64,000 nt of DNA, taken from positions 1 to 64,000 of the forward strand of contig CALFBP010000011.1 in the NCBI GenBank assembly GCA_937951625.1, given 5' to 3'. This DNA comes from an uncultured Thermoguttaceae bacterium. Its GTDB lineage: Bacteria > Planctomycetota > Planctomycetia > Pirellulales > Thermoguttaceae. The translations under genes and the position numbers were made by a program. The notes beneath the pieces are model-generated. The model did no database searches and was not told the DNA's origin. It was given only the letters and a program-made list of their open reading frames with translations. Of this stretch, positions 30,737-41,742 are shown one piece after another (the first letter of the stretch is position 1; the number at the start of each line of letters is the position of its first letter).

Positions 30737-31525
30737 CTAGAAACTTGGCGGCGCGCCATCGCCGCCCAAACGCTTGGGCTTGACTCCCCCTGCGCTTGCC
30801 ACGACCTGCCAATAGGCGTGGCGCGTCGGCAGGTCGACCTCCCGTTGCATCGACAAGCCGACGAAAAAGGTCTTCAGGCCGTCGGTGTCCGGAAAGGTCA
30901 CGGCGAAGGTCTGATACACGCGGTCGCGCGGACCGTCGGCCCATTGGGACTCGGTGGCGTAGTAACGGACGATGGCCCGGTCGCCCAAGGCCAAGAGGGT
31001 GCGGACCTCAGGTCTTGCGAGATACTGCCGCAGCATCTGCCGCGCCTCTATGTCCTGATACGATTCCCACAATTTTCTGTCGTCCAATCGGCCGCGCATG
31101 CTAGGAGCCACGGTCAGTTGATGAGCCAGAAGCGGGTGATCCGTTCGGAGATAGTCGAACCACAATTCGGCGAACTGTCGGGCCTCCTGACGGAGAAAAG
31201 CCCGATACAGGAGCCAATCCACGGGGATCGCGAAGACGGTAAAGACCGATAAGGCGAGTCCCGTCAACGCCGCCTTGCGGCCGAGCAAGGCCGGGGCGTT
31301 GGCGGCGACCCAGCGTAGGGCCTTCACGTTCACCATCACCGCCACCACGGCCAGGACCCACAACAAAGGCGACGCAAATGCGAGAAGCGACAACAAGCCG
31401 GCCAAAAGTCCCGCCACCGCTAGCCCGCTGATGGCCTGATATTGCGTGGCATCAGGATCATCCGACAAATTCAACCGTGACTGGTACACTTCGCGATGGA
31501 CTTGAAAGGTGTTCTTGGCCGCCAT
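30737..31525 (-). CDS. Membrane protein of unknown function
   Basis: A 262-residue protein. Residues about 30-125 contain three to four hydrophobic segments (ISGLAVAGLLAGLLSLLAF, LLWVLAVVAVMVNVKAL, AALTGLALSVFTVFAIPVDWL), similar in layout to DUF4190-type membrane domains. The C-terminal half is soluble and mixed alpha/beta (FAELWFDYLRTDHPLLAH, YQTFAVTFPDTDGLKTFFV). No catalytic motif is seen. It is minus strand, 80 bases upstream (in map order) from the CvpA-like gene and in the same direction, so the two may be cotranscribed with the pilus ATPase genes further right. Confidence 0.65.
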   Translation of the reverse strand: MAAKNTFQVHREVYQSRLNLSDDPDATQYQAISGLAVAGLLAGLLSLLAFASPLLWVLAVVAVMVNVKALRWVAANAPALLGRKAALTGLALSVFTVFAIPVDWLLYRAFLRQEARQFAELWFDYLRTDHPLLAHQLTVAPSMRGRLDDRKLWESYQDIEARQMLRQYLARPEVRTLLALGDRAIVRYYATESQWADGPRDRVYQTFAVTFPDTDGLKTFFVGLSMQREVDLPTRHAYWQVVASAGGVKPKRLGGDGAPPSF

Positions 31526-31605: not shown

Positions 31606-32241
31606 CTATCGTTTGGGAGCCTCGCCCTCGCCCACGCGGAACGATTTCTTTTCCTCCAAGTGTTTTTCCAGGCTTCCGCGCCGATTGTTGTATTTGACCA
31701 TGAATTGATTGTTTTCGTCGAAGACGCGTTTTTCGCCGTAAGCGAAGGGCCCCTTGGAGGCGTGTTGCACAAAGCCGAGCCATTGCCGATCCGGACCCAC
31801 GACGAGCATCCGTCGAGAAGGATCGAATCCGCCGAAGAGGAATCGGGCGGCCAAGGGGGCGGTGTGTAGCGTGGCCATCACGAAGCACACCAGCACCCAG
31901 CCGACCAGCGCCGCAAACACCGCGCTTCCCGTGCGGTCCACCACCTTCAAAAACCGTACCTTGACCCGAGAGATCGAATCGGTCGCAAGACGCATGACGA
32001 TCATCGAAACGCCAAACAAGACCCAAAGGGAAATAAAATCCCAGAAGTAGGTCGCCGAGGCGAACCAATCGCCCCAAGTTTCAATCCATCGGGCCAGCGG
32101 CTCGAAATAATTCATGGCGATCAGTCCGGCCGTGACCACATTGACTAGCCGGATGGCGTTGCTCCACAATCCCTCGGGATAGAGCACGCCGAGGCAGGCC
32201 GCGAAAATCAGTAACATCAATAGGGGGAGAATCGCGCTCAT
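31606..32241 (-). CDS. CvpA-like integral membrane protein
   Basis: From the ATG at 32241 the product has 211 residues with four hydrophobic helices (ILPLLMLLIFAACLGVLY, AIRLVNVVTAGLIAMNYFE, YFWDFISLWVLFGVSMIVMRL, AVFAALVGWVLVCFVMATL). The arrangement, with a charged loop before the last helix, resembles the CvpA family, whose members affect envelope function and colicin V export. The C-terminal tail is polar and basic with KYNNRRGSLEKHLEEKK. Similarity is by topology and the helix 3-4 pattern only. It is 120 bases downstream of the degenerate pilus ATPase gene on the same strand. Confidence 0.65.
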   Translation of the reverse strand: MSAILPLLMLLIFAACLGVLYPEGLWSNAIRLVNVVTAGLIAMNYFEPLARWIETWGDWFASATYFWDFISLWVLFGVSMIVMRLATDSISRVKVRFLKVVDRTGSAVFAALVGWVLVCFVMATLHTAPLAARFLFGGFDPSRRMLVVGPDRQWLGFVQHASKGPFAYGEKRVFDENNQFMVKYNNRRGSLEKHLEEKKSFRVGEGEAPKR

Positions 32242-32362: not shown

Positions 32363-34438
32363 TCATTGTTTCAGCACGCGCATCAACTCCTGGAGCGAAG
32401 TGACGCCCTTAGCGACCAACACGATCCCTTCGTCTTGGAGGCTCCGATAGCCGGCCTTTTGCGCGGCCTGGCGGAAGACATCGGGATTGGGATTTGCGGC
32501 CAGCGTTTGTCGCAGGGCGTCGTTCATGGTAAGCATCTCGAAAATCCCCGTCCGGCCCAAATAGCCCACGCCGTTGCATTCGGGGCAAACTTCGTTGCGT
32601 TGCTGGGGGGGCCGATAAAAAGCTTGGACGCGGCCCGCCGGGATGCCCAGTTGGCCCAACACTTGCGCGGTCGGCGCATAGGCTTCCTTGCAATTCTCGC
32701 AAAGCTTTCGCACCAGCCGCTGGCAGATCACGGCGCTGAGGGCGGGGGCCAAATCGGCGGCGGGAACGCCCAAGGCCAGCACCCGGTAGATCGCGTCGAT
32801 GCAGTCCTTCGCCCGAATCATGCTCAACACCAACCGCGGATGCGAGACCTCGGCCAGCAGCATTTCGACCGTCTCGGCATTGACCAGATCGCGGACCACC
32901 ACCACCTGCGGCTCGGTGTGAAACACGTTGGGCAACACGGAGGCGGGCGTCTGGCCCTCGACCGATTTGTAGGTGAAGACGGGGAGGTTTTCGACCGGTT
33001 CATAGCGGTTGTTTTCGTCCTCGACGGAAACGAACTCGCGGGTGAAACGGTCGGCGGTGCGCAGCACCACGTTCAACGTGCTTCGCAACCCGCCCGCCGG
33101 AATCGCGGAAAAAAGCACCATCCCTCCCGGCCTTCCCATGACCTCGCGGAGCTCTTCCTGCATCTTGGTCCGCATGCCGATCTCGTCGAGGTTGGCGAAG
33201 CGGGTCTTCTTGATCTCCAGTTGCAGCACGGCCCGCTCGCCCGTCGCCGTCCCTTGCGACGTCAGTTTGATCTCGCAGACCATTTTGTCCAAGGCGCGAT
33301 TCGGGTCGACTTTCTCCGCGCCGCGGAGTTGCGCGAGGTCCTTCAGCTCGACCGGGGTCCAAGGGCCGATGGGCGAGGAGAACCGGCTCCGCGTCCGCTC
33401 GTCGCTAGCGATCTTGATCTTCAACTGAAGCTCGGCCGGACTCAATCCCGGGGCGGCGAACTCCTTGGTCAATTGCGGGGCCAGCTTCTGCCGGTAAGCC
33501 TCCTTGGCCTTCTCCACCTGGTCGAACACCGATCGCCGAAAGACCGTGTACTCGGCCGCCAACTTGCCCTCTTGCCGACTCTGCCGGTCTTTGGGGTTGA
33601 GTCCCGCCAGGACTTTCAGCGATTCCAGGGCCGGATCGCCGATTTCGCGGTCCAACGGTTCGCCGTTCTGCCAAACGCCGTCGATCAACAGGCGCATCGC
33701 TACGCCTTGCTGGCTATAGTCGAGCATCACCGCGTCGGCGCGGCGGTACAAGGCGTCGTAAATCAATTTTTGCGCGTGGGGGAAACCGGGGGTTTGGCGG
33801 GCCGCCAGGGTCCGGGCAGCGTTGTCGCGGTCGTTGCCCGCGGCGGGCGTCAACACGACCGGCACGGAAGCCAGCAACGGATCCCGCTTCTCCACCTCGA
33901 TGTTCGCGCCGAACTTGTTCAACACCGTGGCGGCACAGTAGCGCAAATGCGAGGGGGTGAGCACGCGCTCATGTTCCTCGACTTTCTGGTTGCGGACCAC
34001 GATATAGGTTCCCAGCGGCACTAACCAGGCCAAGACCAGGATCGCGAACGATACCCAGAACATGGGCAAAAACCAGAGCAATACCTGGGCGACCAGGAAA
34101 ACGCCGACGACGATCGGGTTCCAACGCAGGTAATCCATTTCGACCGCCTGCGCGTCGCGACTGACCCAGTCGGTGGTACCCACCCAAAAAAGAAACACCA
34201 ACCAAGCGAGGAGGATTTTCAGCCAGTCGAGGTAGAACCCCGGCCCACTCCAACCGTCGCTCAATGGCGAGACCGACCAGCCGCCATCCTGGGCCCAAAG
34301 CTCCTCCGCGCCGGGGCCGAACACCACGACCAGCACGACCGCCCCCCACCAGATCGGGCGCAAACCCCTGGACGAAACCAACCCGGTAAGCAACGACTTC
34401 GCAGCACGCACGAAGGATGTGGTAAGGGGGCGCATCAT
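32363..34438 (-). CDS. GspE/PilB-type secretion ATPase homologue with degenerate nucleotide site
   Basis: The 691-residue protein has two to three N-terminal membrane helices (about residues 30-45, 73-90 and 108-148), absent from normal PilB/GspE. The C-terminal half keeps the GspE fold order, including the four zinc cysteines (Cys580, Cys583, Cys618, Cys621) and the QRLVRKLC and GRTGIFEML motifs. The Walker A loop, normally GPTGSGKTTT, reads AIPAGGLRST (about 445-454), and the Walker B GEIRD reads VRDLVN (about 515-520). It therefore probably cannot hydrolyse ATP and may be a structural or regulatory partner. Its start overlaps the intact pilT stop by four bases (ATGA), so they are made together. 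Confidence 0.82.
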   Translation of the reverse strand: MMRPLTTSFVRAAKSLLTGLVSSRGLRPIWWGAVVLVVVFGPGAEELWAQDGGWSVSPLSDGWSGPGFYLDWLKILLAWLVFLFWVGTTDWVSRDAQAVEMDYLRWNPIVVGVFLVAQVLLWFLPMFWVSFAILVLAWLVPLGTYIVVRNQKVEEHERVLTPSHLRYCAATVLNKFGANIEVEKRDPLLASVPVVLTPAAGNDRDNAARTLAARQTPGFPHAQKLIYDALYRRADAVMLDYSQQGVAMRLLIDGVWQNGEPLDREIGDPALESLKVLAGLNPKDRQSRQEGKLAAEYTVFRRSVFDQVEKAKEAYRQKLAPQLTKEFAAPGLSPAELQLKIKIASDERTRSRFSSPIGPWTPVELKDLAQLRGAEKVDPNRALDKMVCEIKLTSQGTATGERAVLQLEIKKTRFANLDEIGMRTKMQEELREVMGRPGGMVLFSAIPAGGLRSTLNVVLRTADRFTREFVSVEDENNRYEPVENLPVFTYKSVEGQTPASVLPNVFHTEPQVVVVRDLVNAETVEMLLAEVSHPRLVLSMIRAKDCIDAIYRVLALGVPAADLAPALSAVICQRLVRKLCENCKEAYAPTAQVLGQLGIPAGRVQAFYRPPQQRNEVCPECNGVGYLGRTGIFEMLTMNDALRQTLAANPNPDVFRQAAQKAGYRSLQDEGIVLVAKGVTSLQELMRVLKQ

Positions 34439-35604
34439 AGAATCCCGGCTTCTTTGACTTGGATGCCCTTGAGGGCCATCTTGAGGGCTTCGGGGTTCGG
34501 CGCGACCTCGAACGCCGTGGCCCGATCGATCATCTTCGTTTCCACGAGATGCTTCAAGCTCATCGTGAAGTCCTGCATCCCCTCGTTGGCGCTGATGCGG
34601 ATCGCATCGGCCAACTTGTCGTCCTTGCCCTCTTGGATCAGCTTCCGCACCGTGGGATTGAAGGTCATGATCTCCACCGTCGGCACGCGCTGCACGCCTT
34701 CCTTGATCGAGGGCAGCAGCTTCTGGGCAATGATCGCCTTCATGTTGAACACTAACGCGCTGCGGATGGCGGAGTGCATTCCCTCGGGAAAAAGGTCGAG
34801 AATGCGGCCGATGGTGCTAGGGGCGGTCGAGGCGTGGATCGTCCCGAAAACCAGGTGGCCCGTCTCCGCCGCCTGGATCGCCGTCTCGAAAGTCTCCCGG
34901 TCCCGCATCTCGCCCACGAGCATCACGTCCGGGTCTTCGCGCACGGCATGCTTCATGCCGACCATGAAGTCGCGCACGTCCTGACCAATCTCTCGCTGGT
35001 TGACGATAGCCTTCTTGTCGGTAAAGACGTACTCGACCGGGTCTTCGAGGGTGAGAATATGGACGGCCTCGTTGCGGTTGATCCAGTCCAGCATCGCGGC
35101 GATTGTGGTGCTCTTCCCAGAGCCCGTGACCCCGGCCAACAAAATCATGCCTTGATCGAACTTGCAGAGTTCCTCGAGCACCGGGGGCAGGTGCAAGCCG
35201 GCGAAGTCCGGGATTTTGTTGTTCACCCGGCGGGCCACCAGGCCCATCGAACCCATCTGCTGCAAGATGTTCACACGGAACCGCCACACCGTGCCATCGA
35301 CTTCGACCTTGTGCGCGAAATCCACCCCCCCGTCGCGATCAAAGATCTCGCGGCGGCGATCCTTGAGGCGGGGTTCGCTATCGATAAGTCCATACAGGAG
35401 GCGAGTCATTTCCTCATCGTCGATCGGTCCCCGATTGAGTGGGCGGAGTGTGCCGGCCACGCGGACGTGCGGCGGCAGGCCCACTTTCAAGTGCAAATCG
35501 CTTCCCTGGACCTTGACCAACGCGCGAAACAGCTTATCGATTTCCAGTTCTTTCGTCGCTTTCGCCGGGCCGCTGGGGACTCCGTTTTCCACAACCGTCG
35601 CCAT
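34435..35604 (-). CDS. pilT: PilT-type retraction ATPase
   Basis: A 389-residue hexameric ATPase that powers pilus retraction (twitching). All nucleotide motifs are intact: Walker A GVTGSGKSTTIAAML near residues 158-172, Asp box LTLEDPVEYVF, Walker B DVMLVGEMRDRETFETAI and His box GHLVFGTIHAS. The C-terminal segment has the PilT/PilU AIRISANEGMQDF region. Length fits PilU-like proteins. It is the first gene of a coupled pair with the degenerate ATPase, and the pair may drive type IV pili or a DUF1559 pilin-like system. hisF lies 67 bases upstream on the same strand. Confidence 0.93.
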   Translation of the reverse strand: MATVVENGVPSGPAKATKELEIDKLFRALVKVQGSDLHLKVGLPPHVRVAGTLRPLNRGPIDDEEMTRLLYGLIDSEPRLKDRRREIFDRDGGVDFAHKVEVDGTVWRFRVNILQQMGSMGLVARRVNNKIPDFAGLHLPPVLEELCKFDQGMILLAGVTGSGKSTTIAAMLDWINRNEAVHILTLEDPVEYVFTDKKAIVNQREIGQDVRDFMVGMKHAVREDPDVMLVGEMRDRETFETAIQAAETGHLVFGTIHASTAPSTIGRILDLFPEGMHSAIRSALVFNMKAIIAQKLLPSIKEGVQRVPTVEIMTFNPTVRKLIQEGKDDKLADAIRISANEGMQDFTMSLKHLVETKMIDRATAFEVAPNPEALKMALKGIQVKEAGIL

Positions 35605-35671: not shown

Positions 35672-36454
35672 CTACGCAGCCGTATTCGCCAGCCGCACGG
35701 GGATTCCCCGTTGATGCATTAACTGTTTTGTCTCTCGAATCGTGTACTGCCCATAATGAAAGATGCTGGCCGCCAATACCGCATCCGCCCCTCCCCGCAA
35801 GATCGCCTCCACAAGGTGCTCAGGGCAGCCCGCCCCGCCACTTGCCACCAGGGGGATAGAGATTTCCCGGGCCACGGCGGCCGTCATCGCCAGATCGTAG
35901 CCGTCCTGGGTGCCGTCGGCATCCATCGAGGTGAGGACAATTTCCCCGGCGCCCAAACGCTCCACCTCCTTGGCCCAAGCGACTGCTTCCAGACCGGTAG
36001 GCACACGCCCCCCGTTAATGTGAACCTCCCATATCTCCCGATCGTTCTTAAGGACGCGTTTCGGGTCAATGTTCACAACAATGCACTGACTGCCGAATTT
36101 CCGAGCGGCTTGGGCGACGAAATCCGGGTTGCGACACGCGGCCGAATTGATGGAGACCTTGTCTGCGCCCGCGTTGAGCAGGGCACGAATGTCTTCCAGC
36201 GTCCGAATACCCCCGCCCACGGTTAGCGGCATGAACACCACCTCGGCGGTTCGCCGCACCACGTCCAGGAGGATGTCTCGCTGTTCGTGGCTGGCGGTGA
36301 TATCCAGGAAAACCAGCTCATCGGCCCCTTCGCGTTCGTAACGAGCCGCAATCTCCACAGGATCCCCCGCATCGCGGAGGTTCACGAAATTCGTGCCCTT
36401 GACCACCCGACCGCGATCCACGTCCAGGCAGGGGATGACTCGCTTGGCAAGCAT
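35672..36454 (-). CDS. hisF: Imidazole glycerol phosphate synthase, cyclase subunit
   Basis: The 260-residue TIM barrel turns the PRFAR intermediate and ammonia into imidazole glycerol phosphate and AICAR, in histidine synthesis. Landmarks: [18 protein letters not shown] with the catalytic Asp, [55 protein letters not shown] with the second catalytic Asp, PLVASGGAG and [15 protein letters not shown]. Length is standard. The start is ATG 36454; the frame is open to 36865 but the extra sequence is not family-like. The partner subunit hisH and other his genes are absent here, as often in planctomycetes with scattered his genes. Confidence 0.95.
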
Positions 36455-37112
36455 GGATGGAATACGGTTCACTCCGATTTGGCCTTCTCGGCCTCCGTGG
36501 TCGCGTGCGAACCATCGCTCCGAGGCAACCAGATAAGTTTCTACTCTACGCTCGGAAAAGGCGGTGGTCAACCGGCCGAGGGATTCGTTCCAATCATGCC
36601 CGGATATGAGCGCTTGGCGATACCGTCGCGAAGCCGAATAGTCCCGACTCGCAACCGCGCATTCCCGACGATTCCATGCAGCCAAGTTCCGAGGGATGTA
36701 CCGGGAACGTTTCGCCGTTCGTCGAACCCGCCGCGTGCCCCTGCCTCGCAACTCGCCTGGCAAGGCGACAATACCGGCGATCCCCCGCTGGCTCGCAGTG
36801 CTCGCCGAAAATGCGGGGCCTAGAAAGGATGTGCCCATCAACAACGAGGATCCGTTCGATGCCAAGGGGGTTTTGATTCTCCCCTAAACGGACTAATCGA
36901 TTTTTAGTACCCCTCGGTTGGACACCTCCTTCAGCTCAGCTTGGGCGTTAAAGTCTGCCCGATCCGCTCGAACCATGTAATTCCAATCGCGTCTTCAGCC
37001 GGTTTTTACCGATGAAAGACTCAGGCGGTCGTAGAGCGTATTTCAGGAGTTTGTCTGAGTCGCTCTTCGAGCAAGGGTGACGTTTCCGTTCATCCCCCAA
37101 AGTGGTACTCGT
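36455..37112. other. Divergent intergenic region, no gene seen
   Basis: About 660 bases between hisF (minus) and the WD40 gene (plus). No recognisable protein or RNA was found; frames on both strands overlap without ribosome-binding sites. A CACCTCCTT run near 36924-36935 resembles a 16S rRNA 3' end only by chance. Confidence 0.45.
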
Positions 37113-38135: not shown

Positions 38136-38238
38136 GGGCGTCTCACGAATCCAAACGCCTCGGGGTGGAACATGAAAGCGTAAAGGCTCGGTGGCCGAGC
38201 ACGGGCCGCGTCGCTCACATGCCCCCAAGGGAAATCAA

Positions 38239-41200
38239 ATGAGAGGGACACGGAGGTTGTCAGTGGGCTTGTTCAGTCGATTGCACGCATGGCGCCGCGC
38301 CTGGCGGCGTTCCCGTCCGGAGGCCGTCCCGGCACGCTCGCCCGCACTCGGACCTCGTGCTTGCCGTTTCGAGGAAATGGAGCCTCGCCAATACCTGTCG
38401 GCCTCGCCCATCCAGATCGGGTCCGTGTACTACGAGGACGCGACCCAAGACGACCGCCTGGGCGATACGATCCAGATCACCTGGTCCGGCGGAGCGCCCG
38501 GCACCCAACTGACGGATTTGGTGATCGACACCGATAAACGGGGCGACGGGCTGACGATCGGCGATTGCCTCTTCGATGTCGCCCCTGGTGGGCTGGGGGC
38601 CTTCGGCCATCAGCCGCTGCGAATCGTCAGCCAAGAGGGGATCGACCTCGTGGAGTATTCGGTCGTTGACGGAGGCACCCGGCTCGCGTTTCGATTCAGC
38701 GGCTTTGACCCCGGCGAGCGGCTGGTCTTCACGATCGACGTGGATGAAATGGGCTTTCTCGGCCCCAACGCCGTGGCCGAAGGAAACGAATGGGAAGGCA
38801 CCAAGCTCATCGCGACCTTCACCGCCCCCCATTTTGAGCCGGCGACGGGCGGCGACGTGTACCTGGACTTCTACGACGCCAAGCTGAGGGCGTCGGGCCT
38901 GGCGTTGCCTCCAGACGATTACGTCCCGCCGAACACCAGTCCCTCGCCTGTGTTCACCGCCGGGGCCATTTTTTCGCTCCAGCAGCGGCCCCTGCCCATC
39001 ACCTTGTCCGGCACGGTCTTCGAGGACTTCAATGGAAACAACGTGCAAGATAGCGGCGACCCTGGCATCGCCGGCGTGCCGCTGACGCTCTATTTCCTGC
39101 AAGGCTCGCAATTCATCGCCACGGGATTGACCGCGGTGACGGACGCGAACGGGTTCTATCGTTTCGACGGGCTGTTGCCGGGCACGTACCGCGTGGTCGA
39201 GACGCAGCCGAACGGTTACTTGAGCGTCGGCGCTCGCCCTGGGACCGTAGCTGGCGTGACCCGAGGCGTGGTCGCCGACGTGAACACGCTGAGCGACATC
39301 GTTCTCCAAGGCGGCGACGACAGCCTGCATAACGATTTCGCCGAGGCCCGACCAGCCAGCATCTCCGGCCACGTCTACGCCGACGACAACCGCAATGGAT
39401 TGAGGGACCCCGGCGAGACGCCCATCGGCAACGTCCGGTTGACGCTCCTGGATGCCCAAGGCAATCCCACCGCGAACACCGCGACCACGGACGCCAACGG
39501 CTTCTATCTCTTCACCGATTTGCTGCCCGGCGTCTACGGTGTTGCCGAGACGCAGCCGGAGGGCTACTTCGACGGCATCGACCGGCCGGGCACCGCCGGG
39601 GGAACGGCGCTGGCCGATGGCGACCAGATCACCGGCGCCGTGCTTCGCTCGGGAACCAAGGCCCTGGACTACGATTTCGGCGAGATTCGGCCAGCAAGGC
39701 TCGGCGGCCGGGTCTATTTGGACCTGAACAACAACGGCGTGTTCGACAACGCCGAAAAACCGCTGCCCGGCGCGACGGTGTATCTGCTGGACGCCTCAGG
39801 AATCCGCATCGCCGCCACCGTCACCGACAGCCAAGGGAATTATTGGTTCGAAAAGCTCATGCCTGGCGTGTTCGGGCTGGAAGAGGTCCAGCCGTCGGGT
39901 TATCTCGACGGCAAGGACTCGCTGGGAACCGTCGGCGGCACGCTGGACGGCAACGATCGGATGAAGGACATCCGCCTCGACCCCGGCGTCAGCGGCGAGC
40001 GCTACGATTTTGGGGAGCTGCTGCCGGCCACCATTTCGGGCTATGTCTTTGTCGATCTTCCCGTCGTGACCTATGAGGAGGGAACACCCCCGCCCGACCC
40101 GATCGAATTGCTCCGAACCCGCGACGGCGTGTTCGGACCCGAGGATAAACCACTCGCCGGCGTGGTGATTCGTTTGGGCGACGCGAACGGAGTGCCCGTG
40201 CTGGACGAAAGCGGCCAACCGATCACGACGGTCACGCGATCTGACGGCTACTACGAATTCACCAATTTGCTGCCCGGCGTCTACACGGTCATCGAGACGC
40301 ATCCCGAGGGATACATCGACGGCCTTAACACCGTGGGCACGAAGGGCGGCTTCGCTATTAATGCGCTTTCGATCCTGGAAGAACCAGGGATTCTGGTGGG
40401 GCTGGCCCTGGATGCTTCGGAGCAGGCGATCGTGAGGATCGTGTTGCAGGCCGGGGATGTGGGGCAGCATTACAATTTCAGCGAGCTGTTGGTGGAGGCG
40501 ATCCCAGCCCCGCCCCCGCAGCCTAAACCGCCGCAACCACCGGTAACACCGCCGAGCCCTCCACCTTTCCAGCCACCGCTTCAACCGCCAAGCCAACCGT
40601 ATTTCCCGGAGCCCTTGCCGCCGCTGGCGTTCTTCGGCGCTGGCGTGGGGAGCCGGGAACTAGTATCCCTGGGCGGAGGCGGCGGATGGGAAGAGGATTA
40701 CACTTGGCATTTGAGCGTGATCAACGCCGGTCGGCCGCGTCAGGACGTGCAGAAACGCGACCTTGTGGCCGTGGCGGAGGAAAGCCCCCTGTTCAGTCCC
40801 GTGTCGTGGAGCGGCACGGACCTTGGCGGCGGTCAATGGCTGTTGGCCGATCCGCAAGGTAACGTGGCGATTCGCTACATCTTCGGCTTGTACGACGCAA
40901 TCCCGGTGGTCGGCGATTGGAACGGCGAGGGCGTTTCCAAAATCGGGGTCTTCTACGACGGTTTCTGGTTCTTGGACCTGAACGGCGATGGACGTTGGGA
41001 CAAAGAAGACCTCTGGGCCCGTCTGGGGCAACTGGGTGACCGCCCCGTCGCCGGCGACTGGGACGGCGATGGCAAGACCGACATTGGCATCTTCGGCCCG
41101 GCCTGGCACGGCGACCGACGGGCCATTGCCGCTGAACCAGGGTTGCCGGACGTCGCCAATCGCACGGCCGCGGAGGTTAGGGCCCGATACAAGAACATCC

Positions 41201-41742
41201 CGCCCGACCCGGATCAAGCCACCTCCGGCTGGCGCTCGTTGAAGCGCACCGCTTATGGAAAATTCCGCCGGGACCTGATCGACCACGTCTTCCGTTATGG
41301 CGACCAAAAATTCGTTCCTTTGGCCGGAGACTGGAATGGCGATGGGGTGACGAACATCGGCATTTTCCACGAAGGCAAATGGTACTTGGATGCAGATGGC
41401 GATGGCCGCTGGTCGGCGAGTGACGTGGAAATCACTCTGGGCCAACCCGGCGACCTGCCCGTGGTGGGCGATTGGAATGGCGATGGTCGGACCAAGCTGG
41501 GTGTCTACCGCAACGGAGTCTGGCTGTTGGACACCAACGGCGACCAGATTCTCGATGCCCGAGACCGCGTCTTCCAACTGGGCGAACCGGGCGATGTGCC
41601 GGTGACAGGCGATTGGAACGGCGACGGAATCACCGAGATCGGCGTGTACCGCCCAGGCTCTCCCGCCGCAACCCGTCAGGCTTCAACCCCGACCTCGCCC
41701 CACCAGGCGTCCCAGGCCGCCGAGCCGATGTTGAAGCGTTAA
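38239..41742 (+). CDS. Large surface protein with SdrD-B-like repeats and FG-GAP-type C-terminus
   Basis: About 1167 residues. The N-terminus carries a basic stretch and the planctomycete motif FEEMEPRQYLSAS (about residues 44-56), which marks exported proteins. A beta-rich domain follows (to about 250), then four SdrD-B/Cna-B-like repeats of about 115 residues, each beginning with GxVxxDxNxNGxxDxxExPxxGVxLxL and holding a GFYxFxxLLPGxYxVxExQPxGY core. A proline-rich hinge lies at about 757-800 (nt 40501-40640). The last 300 residues hold FG-GAP/VCBS-like repeats: VVGDWNGEGVSKIGVFYDGFW, AGDWDGDGKTDIGIF and GDWNGDGRTKLGVYRNG, which bind calcium. The start has AAGGGA upstream. It is likely a cell-surface adhesin or matrix protein. 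Confidence 0.88.
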   Translation: MRGTRRLSVGLFSRLHAWRRAWRRSRPEAVPARSPALGPRACRFEEMEPRQYLSASPIQIGSVYYEDATQDDRLGDTIQITWSGGAPGTQLTDLVIDTDKRGDGLTIGDCLFDVAPGGLGAFGHQPLRIVSQEGIDLVEYSVVDGGTRLAFRFSGFDPGERLVFTIDVDEMGFLGPNAVAEGNEWEGTKLIATFTAPHFEPATGGDVYLDFYDAKLRASGLALPPDDYVPPNTSPSPVFTAGAIFSLQQRPLPITLSGTVFEDFNGNNVQDSGDPGIAGVPLTLYFLQGSQFIATGLTAVTDANGFYRFDGLLPGTYRVVETQPNGYLSVGARPGTVAGVTRGVVADVNTLSDIVLQGGDDSLHNDFAEARPASISGHVYADDNRNGLRDPGETPIGNVRLTLLDAQGNPTANTATTDANGFYLFTDLLPGVYGVAETQPEGYFDGIDRPGTAGGTALADGDQITGAVLRSGTKALDYDFGEIRPARLGGRVYLDLNNNGVFDNAEKPLPGATVYLLDASGIRIAATVTDSQGNYWFEKLMPGVFGLEEVQPSGYLDGKDSLGTVGGTLDGNDRMKDIRLDPGVSGERYDFGELLPATISGYVFVDLPVVTYEEGTPPPDPIELLRTRDGVFGPEDKPLAGVVIRLGDANGVPVLDESGQPITTVTRSDGYYEFTNLLPGVYTVIETHPEGYIDGLNTVGTKGGFAINALSILEEPGILVGLALDASEQAIVRIVLQAGDVGQHYNFSELLVEAIPAPPPQPKPPQPPVTPPSPPPFQPPLQPPSQPYFPEPLPPLAFFGAGVGSRELVSLGGGGGWEEDYTWHLSVINAGRPRQDVQKRDLVAVAEESPLFSPVSWSGTDLGGGQWLLADPQGNVAIRYIFGLYDAIPVVGDWNGEGVSKIGVFYDGFWFLDLNGDGRWDKEDLWARLGQLGDRPVAGDWDGDGKTDIGIFGPAWHGDRRAIAAEPGLPDVANRTAAEVRARYKNIPPDPDQATSGWRSLKRTAYGKFRRDLIDHVFRYGDQKFVPLAGDWNGDGVTNIGIFHEGKWYLDADGDGRWSASDVEITLGQPGDLPVVGDWNGDGRTKLGVYRNGVWLLDTNGDQILDARDRVFQLGEPGDVPVTGDWNGDGITEIGVYRPGSPAATRQASTPTSPHQASQAAEPMLKR

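Follow-up and report, generated by a model that had tools for sequence, protein, structure and literature searches.

A membrane-anchored GspE/PilB homologue with degenerate ATPase motifs in Pirellulales and CvpA as its candidate partner

The window analysed here is a stretch of 64,000 nucleotides from an uncultured Thermoguttaceae bacterium. Its minus strand carries the gene (32363..34438) of a membrane-anchored GspE/PilB-fold pseudo-ATPase of 691 aa, assigned from Pfam, NCBIfam, a structure match and motif counts. Sequence comparison places the protein among the membrane-anchored homologues of GspE/PilB, a family spread across the phylum of the window; the features by which this family was defined here, namely a homologous membrane N-terminus, a GspE/PilB core and a CvpA gene in the genome, were all found. 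The favoured reading, at a rough probability of 55%, is an anchored GspE/PilB-like ring whose membrane part would link it to CvpA and which would serve here as a pseudo-ATPase scaffold, possibly for PilT. Taken separately, CvpA is likely to be the partner of the anchored form, and docking of PilT by the window protein is put forward as a tentative, quite possible addition.

Architecture and genomic setting

The protein was compared with the GspE/PilB families by HMM search, as the sequence-only reading had proposed. The T2SSE domain was found at residues 391-687 (Pfam, E 6.6e-41), and the best relatives in NCBIfam and in the PDB were GspE and PilB/PilF. The equivalog scores remained below cut-off for both GspE (165.4 of 630 bits) and PilB (147.6 of 676 bits). 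The genome's own PilB-type protein, used as a control, also missed the PilB cut-off (626.2 of 676 bits), indicating that this cut-off is strict. The PilT/PilU model TIGR01420 gave 22.2 bits, below its cut-off of 319.1. No Pfam family besides T2SSE was detected in the protein at E values up to 1, the PilC/GspF domain T2SSF (PF00482) being absent. The AlphaFold model calculated with 55 family sequences had a mean pLDDT of 89 and a pTM of 0.75, with mostly low values for residues 1-67. The PilB core (5tsh_C) overlaid residues 215-691 of the model with Z 34.3 and 2.1 Å over 379 residues. The T2SSE fold, that is N2 and the C-terminal domain, was thus recovered by both Pfam and the structure match.

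The N-terminus probably consists of a cleaved signal peptide and three predicted membrane helices, in accordance with the two to three helices read earlier from the letters. The probable signal peptide (residues 26-49; 34292..34363, on the minus strand like all features of the gene given below) was deduced from a hydrophobic stretch before the helices; this stretch ends near A49, an alanine which is invariant among the 31 sequences of alignment A1. The helices (residues 72-98, 103-123 and 127-152; 33983..34225) were predicted from the AlphaFold secondary structure and hydropathy. Hydropathy indicated no membrane helices in the four canonical GspE/PilB proteins of the same genome. From the helix count, the GspE-like part of the window protein should face the cytoplasm. 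The model and the alignment placed an N2-like domain at about residues 187-300 (33539..33880), with the PilB core match starting from 215 and with the 'DIHxEP' of intact relatives altered. The alignment and the model also placed a helical insertion at about residues 302-382 (33293..33535), between N2 and the C-terminal domain. These positions, about 80 residues, were filled in 7 of the 76 aligned rows of the order, the carriers besides the window being L120, L121, L122, L123, L185 and L202, and in 0 rows of the other groups.

The catalytic sites were read from the sequence and the alignments. The Walker A position (residues 445-454; 33077..33106) is AIPAGGLRST, with Leu in place of Lys, and does not follow GxxxxGK[ST]. 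The degenerate Walker B/Glu box (residues 512-520; 32879..32905) has VRDLVN at 515-520 where GEIRD was expected, and the His of the His box is replaced by Arg542. The Cys tetrad is present, with its first pair at C580 and C583 (32690..32701) and its second at C618 and C621 (32576..32587). Loss of the Walker motifs in a protein that keeps the tetrad and the GspE/PilB fold had been claimed beforehand and was borne out by the sequence, Pfam, the alignments and the structure match.

The gene starts within the last codons of pilT (34435..35604, minus strand), and the two have four bases in common (34435-34438), as had been stated. The PilT-family ATPase encoded there (TIGR01420, 388.9 bits, cut-off 319.1) has the intact motifs GVTGSGKST and GEMRD. 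The earlier picture of a membrane-bound degenerate GspE/PilB homologue beside an intact PilT therefore stands, and it is conserved across the order. The gene after the window gene encodes a membrane protein of the CvpA family (Colicin_V, PF02674; 31606..32358, minus strand), assigned by a Pfam match of 1.4e-12, a profile match at 31621-32241 and co-occurrence; its open reading frame opens at TTG, and the likelier start is the ATG at 32241. A membrane protein with a weak DUF4190 match below cut-off is encoded at 30737..31525 (minus strand); counting the window, 11 neighbourhoods have a member of its cluster. On the other side, pilT is preceded by a His_biosynth (HisF-like) gene (35672..36865, minus strand), and a gene of this type was directly upstream in 24 of 47 PilT loci. 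At 38191-41742 (plus strand) a 1183-aa protein with four SdrD_B-like stretches is encoded, which is probably a large surface or secreted protein.

No pilus family apart from PilT, and neither pilin nor PilC, was found among the tested neighbours in the window. The same genome carries four other GspE/PilB genes with intact motifs. Its second PilT, 40% identical to that of the window, shares a contig with two of these genes and with a PilC, and GspF/PilC genes adjoin the other two. The window protein is not the main pilus motor, a separate PilB-type/PilT/PilC locus being present in the genome. A role in the cell's type IV pilus, either as a PilC-like platform or as a second extension factor, for which homology to the extension ATPase and the neighbouring PilT could be cited, is improbable in view of this separate locus and of the tested neighbours. 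A PilC/GspF-like gene at G000:C26:10821-11768 had no GspE/PilB gene among the matches listed on its contig.

Catalytic motifs in relatives and the history of their loss

All 196 genomes drawn from the order of the window (Pirellulales) were matched, at a threshold which canonical GspE/PilB proteins also pass. Of the 94 order genomes in the class sample, 93 reached 6.8e-88 or better with their best profile match, which in family f8 may be an extra intact copy; the exception was G168 (3.4e-69). The class search covered 297 genomes and the phylum search 294 genomes. Among the matches listed, those of many, not all, other families of the class and phylum reached into the membrane part. A search of named genomes gave 3 loci, one of them from a Pirellulales relative. 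The order is identified by the Pirellulales record L006, which groups with a same-order row in the protein's own tree, and the other groups were named by inference.

The order set comprised 75 aligned homologues, after sequences with identical last 250 residues were counted once and one mis-assigned PilT row was dropped. Both catalytic motifs were present in 0 of these 75 rows. The P-loop Lys was found in one row, a second tandem copy, and the Gly-Glu pair and the His-box His in none; all four Cys were kept in 73. Tandem gene copies are located at L115:7933-11104 and L116:7120-11136, and the second copy of L115 keeps the Walker A Lys and has lost Walker B. The two order members which lack the Cys tetrad belong to f16 (L198:5356-8040 and L199:5000-6862). 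In the comparison groups, both motifs were intact in 12/12 rows from other families of the class and 5/5 rows from further families of the phylum, as well as in three of three extra f8 copies and all seven canonical GspE/PilB proteins. No row had both in a second degenerate group that lies beyond the class (0/19) or in a helix-less paralogue of family f22 (0/3). This second f22 GspE/PilB paralogue (L144:7710-9014, L161:7776-9341, L162:1281-2609) adjoins neither pilT nor cvpA. The membrane N-terminus could be aligned between intact and degenerate forms.

The recurrence of the altered motifs across the order indicates that they are not due to chance. The substituting residues are themselves conserved in the order: Lys is replaced by Leu or Met in 69 of 75 rows, and Gly-Glu by Arg-Asp/Glu in 59 of 75. 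The window protein is very likely without ATP hydrolysis. Binding or hydrolysis of ATP through a rearranged site could appeal to the Walker A glycine G450, invariant in 76 of 76 rows (one being the PilT row dropped later), to the Thr or Ser which commonly follows it and to the Lys of the tandem copy; this is highly improbable against a P-loop Lys lost in 74/75 rows and the Gly-Glu and the His-box His lost in 75/75. That the gene is simply decaying is the least credible of the alternatives. The lost motifs, the two rows without the Cys tetrad and the several copies without helices would agree with decay, but the reading frame and fold are kept across the order, 42 columns are fully invariant among the 31 sequences of alignment A1 and new residues are conserved at the motif sites, so that decay is already contradicted at the scale of the order. 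The sequence-only reading had held that intact motifs in relatives would mean a recent decay of this copy. Intact motifs were found in 12/12 rows from other class families, which makes the loss derived; its conservation across the order (0/75) makes it old, and recent decay of one copy is ruled out.

The history of the loss was followed on two trees. In the protein's own tree all degenerate rows fell together (99; 96 with 17 of the 75 rows left out), and constraining the class to one clade cost 0.57 log units (p-AU 0.49), which is no rejection. In the PilT tree (47 rows, careful search) the class formed one clade (100/97). The degenerate label changed twice on this tree, and a single change sufficed in 0% of 200 bootstrap trees. 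Forcing the degenerate-linked PilTs together was rejected (42 log units, p-AU 0.00013). The PilT tree is midpoint-rooted and holds one f22 row only, and under this rooting we infer loss rather than regain. PilT trees placed family f22 beside the order or, in a quick tree, inside it on unstarred branches. The two changes and the rejected single clade suggest that the ATPase motifs were probably lost twice, if the gene and PilT share their history. The second degenerate group carries different residues at the old motif positions, with L/M in 7/19 rows and R-D/E in 0/19, which fits a separate loss. A single loss combined with old paralogues or transfer would fit the protein's own tree and is the less preferred explanation of these sequences.

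Association with CvpA and with PilT

The gene order was compared among 41 loci of the order, 12 intact loci of the class, 5 intact loci of the phylum and 19 of the second degenerate group. PilT was directly upstream in 30/41, 7/12, 3/5 and 19/19 of these, respectively, often overlapping or abutting in the order and in the second degenerate group, and a CvpA-like gene was downstream in 30/41, 11/12, 4/5 and 19/19; two of the order loci without PilT upstream, and two of those without CvpA downstream, lie at contig ends. The CvpA profile was built from the gene neighbours themselves, and the CvpA neighbours tested match Pfam Colicin_V, several of them below the curated cut-off. The three extra f8 copies with intact motifs had PilT directly upstream in 0/3 and a CvpA-like gene downstream in 3/3 (L118:2593-4272, L119:7024-8724 and L195:6432-8231); f8 also has a degenerate, pilT-linked copy. 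All of six f22 genomes had PilT (59-64% identical). It adjoined the gene in one of them; in the remaining five CvpA was adjacent and PilT about 10 kb away or farther. The neighbourhoods L140-L160, which come from genomes outside the class, have a long CvpA-like neighbour of about 350-600 aa; where tested, its extra C-terminal part matched no Pfam family above cut-off. Apparent fusions to PilT, about 900 aa long (L147, L157), and a neighbour of 513 aa (L152) were set aside, as the extra part looks like antisense read-through.

The co-occurrence was examined in 80 genomes of the class, 40 with the anchored protein (f22, f23) and 40 without it (f22, f23, f24, f26), which were hand-picked after presence of the gene was seen and are not independent. 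The best matches of the 40 genomes without it lay between 6.7e-58 and 3.1e-75. The split was confirmed with an N-terminal profile, which gave E 3.9e-52 or better in 40 genomes and no better than 4.5e-11 in the other 40, where no listed match starts before profile position 161. Genomes with the anchored protein had cassette-type CvpA in 40/40 cases, those without it in 0/40. Cassette-type PilT was found in 79/80 of the class genomes, including 39 of the 40 that lack the anchored protein. Within the 40 genomes with the protein, the gene had CvpA nearby in 37 and PilT in 19. Both were close by in 17 genomes and CvpA without PilT in 20; two had PilT only (G229, G238) and one had neither (G354). 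In G229 and G238 PilT is adjacent to the anchored gene and CvpA is far.

The PilT neighbourhoods of 20 of the 40 genomes without the protein were also inspected, and 20/20 had no anchored homologue and no CvpA. When presence was mapped on a PilT tree of these 20 PilTs and 36 others, 4 changes were obtained, 3 of them forced by starred branches. The repeated changes and the retained PilT suggest several joint losses of the anchored protein and CvpA, PilT remaining behind. PilT as an obligate partner is accordingly not supported, since PilT is kept in 39/40 genomes without the protein and its loci there carry no anchored homologue (20/20). The coupling to PilT that had been read from the window alone is thus upheld in part, by the frequent adjacency and by two helix-less copies which still follow PilT; it does not extend to presence, which in the sister families tracks CvpA and not PilT.

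The picture in the order was less one-sided. Cassette-type CvpA was found in 63/80 order genomes, and the 17 without it are from families f16 and f10. The gene itself was covered in six of these 17, in two of them (G086, G153) through profile matches only. All four gene copies of the CvpA-less genomes G045, G083 and G115 were without helices. The helix-less degenerate copies L114, L188, L189 and L197 (437-455 aa) come from f16 and f10 genomes in which cassette-type CvpA was not matched. In the CvpA-less G086 (open frame of 449 aa) and G153 the matches begin at profile position 157-160; the CvpA-less G165 keeps the helices. G168 has a CvpA match and no clear anchored protein. Loss of CvpA and loss of the membrane part therefore tend to go together in the order too, as far as the sequences read indicate. 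Two of these copies, L114 and L189, come directly after PilT, at a distance of 16 bases in G115 and of 136 bases in G045. The helix-less protein can thus outlive CvpA and stay by PilT, which favours a membrane part made for CvpA and leaves a role with PilT for the ATPase-fold part.

These observations also bear on the opposite weighting, in which the protein would act chiefly on the adjacent PilT hexamer, as the regulator suggested by the sequence-only reading or as an adaptor or dock, with CvpA a bystander or secondary anchor. The upstream PilT in 30/41 order loci and in 19/19 of the second degenerate group agrees with such a function, as do the helix-less copies placed directly after PilT in genomes without CvpA. 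A precedent is available in Vibrio, where, in the parts of the two studies consulted, PilU acts only together with PilT and an ATPase-dead PilT still supports PilU, so that a dead motor subunit is needed by a live one (PMC6762196, PMC6821130). This weighting is nevertheless rather unlikely: PilT is kept in 39/40 genomes without the protein, it is not near in 21/40 class genomes with it, and the three extra anchored copies of f8 have a CvpA-like gene after them and no PilT before them. Because the order-level CvpA search and the linkage count are less one-sided than the test in the sister families, the reading centred on CvpA is put at the cautious level given at the outset and that centred on PilT is kept as a doubtful alternative of some weight.

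Proposed role and relation to known systems

In the mechanism proposed for the CvpA-tied ring, the predicted helices would anchor a GspE-type ring, by analogy a hexamer, in the inner membrane, where it would form a complex with CvpA. In the ancestral ring ATP hydrolysis would have driven or gated this CvpA complex. Hydrolysis would have stopped in the lineage of the window and independently in another, leaving the ring as a scaffold. The membrane part would meet CvpA, the ATPase-fold part would probably meet PilT, and PilT may supply any power. A bolder form of this proposal is only a speculative possibility: the ring and CvpA might be an undescribed machine in the membranes of this phylum, a pilus-type motor acting on the transporter-like CvpA and not on a pilin filament, whose ATPase was discarded in two lineages to leave a passive coupler between CvpA and a powering PilT. 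The intact natural controls in the sister families, together with the probable double loss, make the role of the ring apart from ATP testable. CvpA is a widespread membrane protein whose function is unclear, and the co-occurrence suggests a candidate partner for it.

The window protein shares with GspE/PilB (PF00437, TIGR02533, TIGR02538) the C-terminal and N2 fold, the Cys tetrad and the best structural match. Unlike them, it has no Walker A/B or His box and carries an N-terminal signal peptide, as predicted, and three predicted helices; in the window CvpA adjoins it, and the neighbours tested included neither pilin nor PilC. PilT and PilU belong to the same superfamily, yet the window protein is nearer to PilB in sequence and fold. 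PilU is not known to carry a membrane anchor. It is described as an active ATPase in the sections consulted of the Vibrio studies (PMC6762196, PMC6821130), which sets it apart from the degenerate window protein. Enteric CvpA is described, in the part consulted of its study, as a predicted protein of the inner membrane that resembles transporters in some features and is needed for deoxycholate resistance (PMC6705877).

The fold is known; the anchor, the candidate CvpA partner and the probable repeated loss of catalysis are not known to have been described before. Among the matches listed, the literature search gave no GspE/PilB-fold partner of CvpA. The matches listed from the open-licence literature likewise contained no ATPase-dead GspE/PilB protein, no membrane-anchored or ATPase-dead planctomycete GspE/PilB family and no link of such a family to CvpA. 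In the essential-gene study of P. limnophila the term 'pilT' does not appear in the main text, and the essential locus annotated there as type II secretion is Plim_0410-0407 (PMC10632474).
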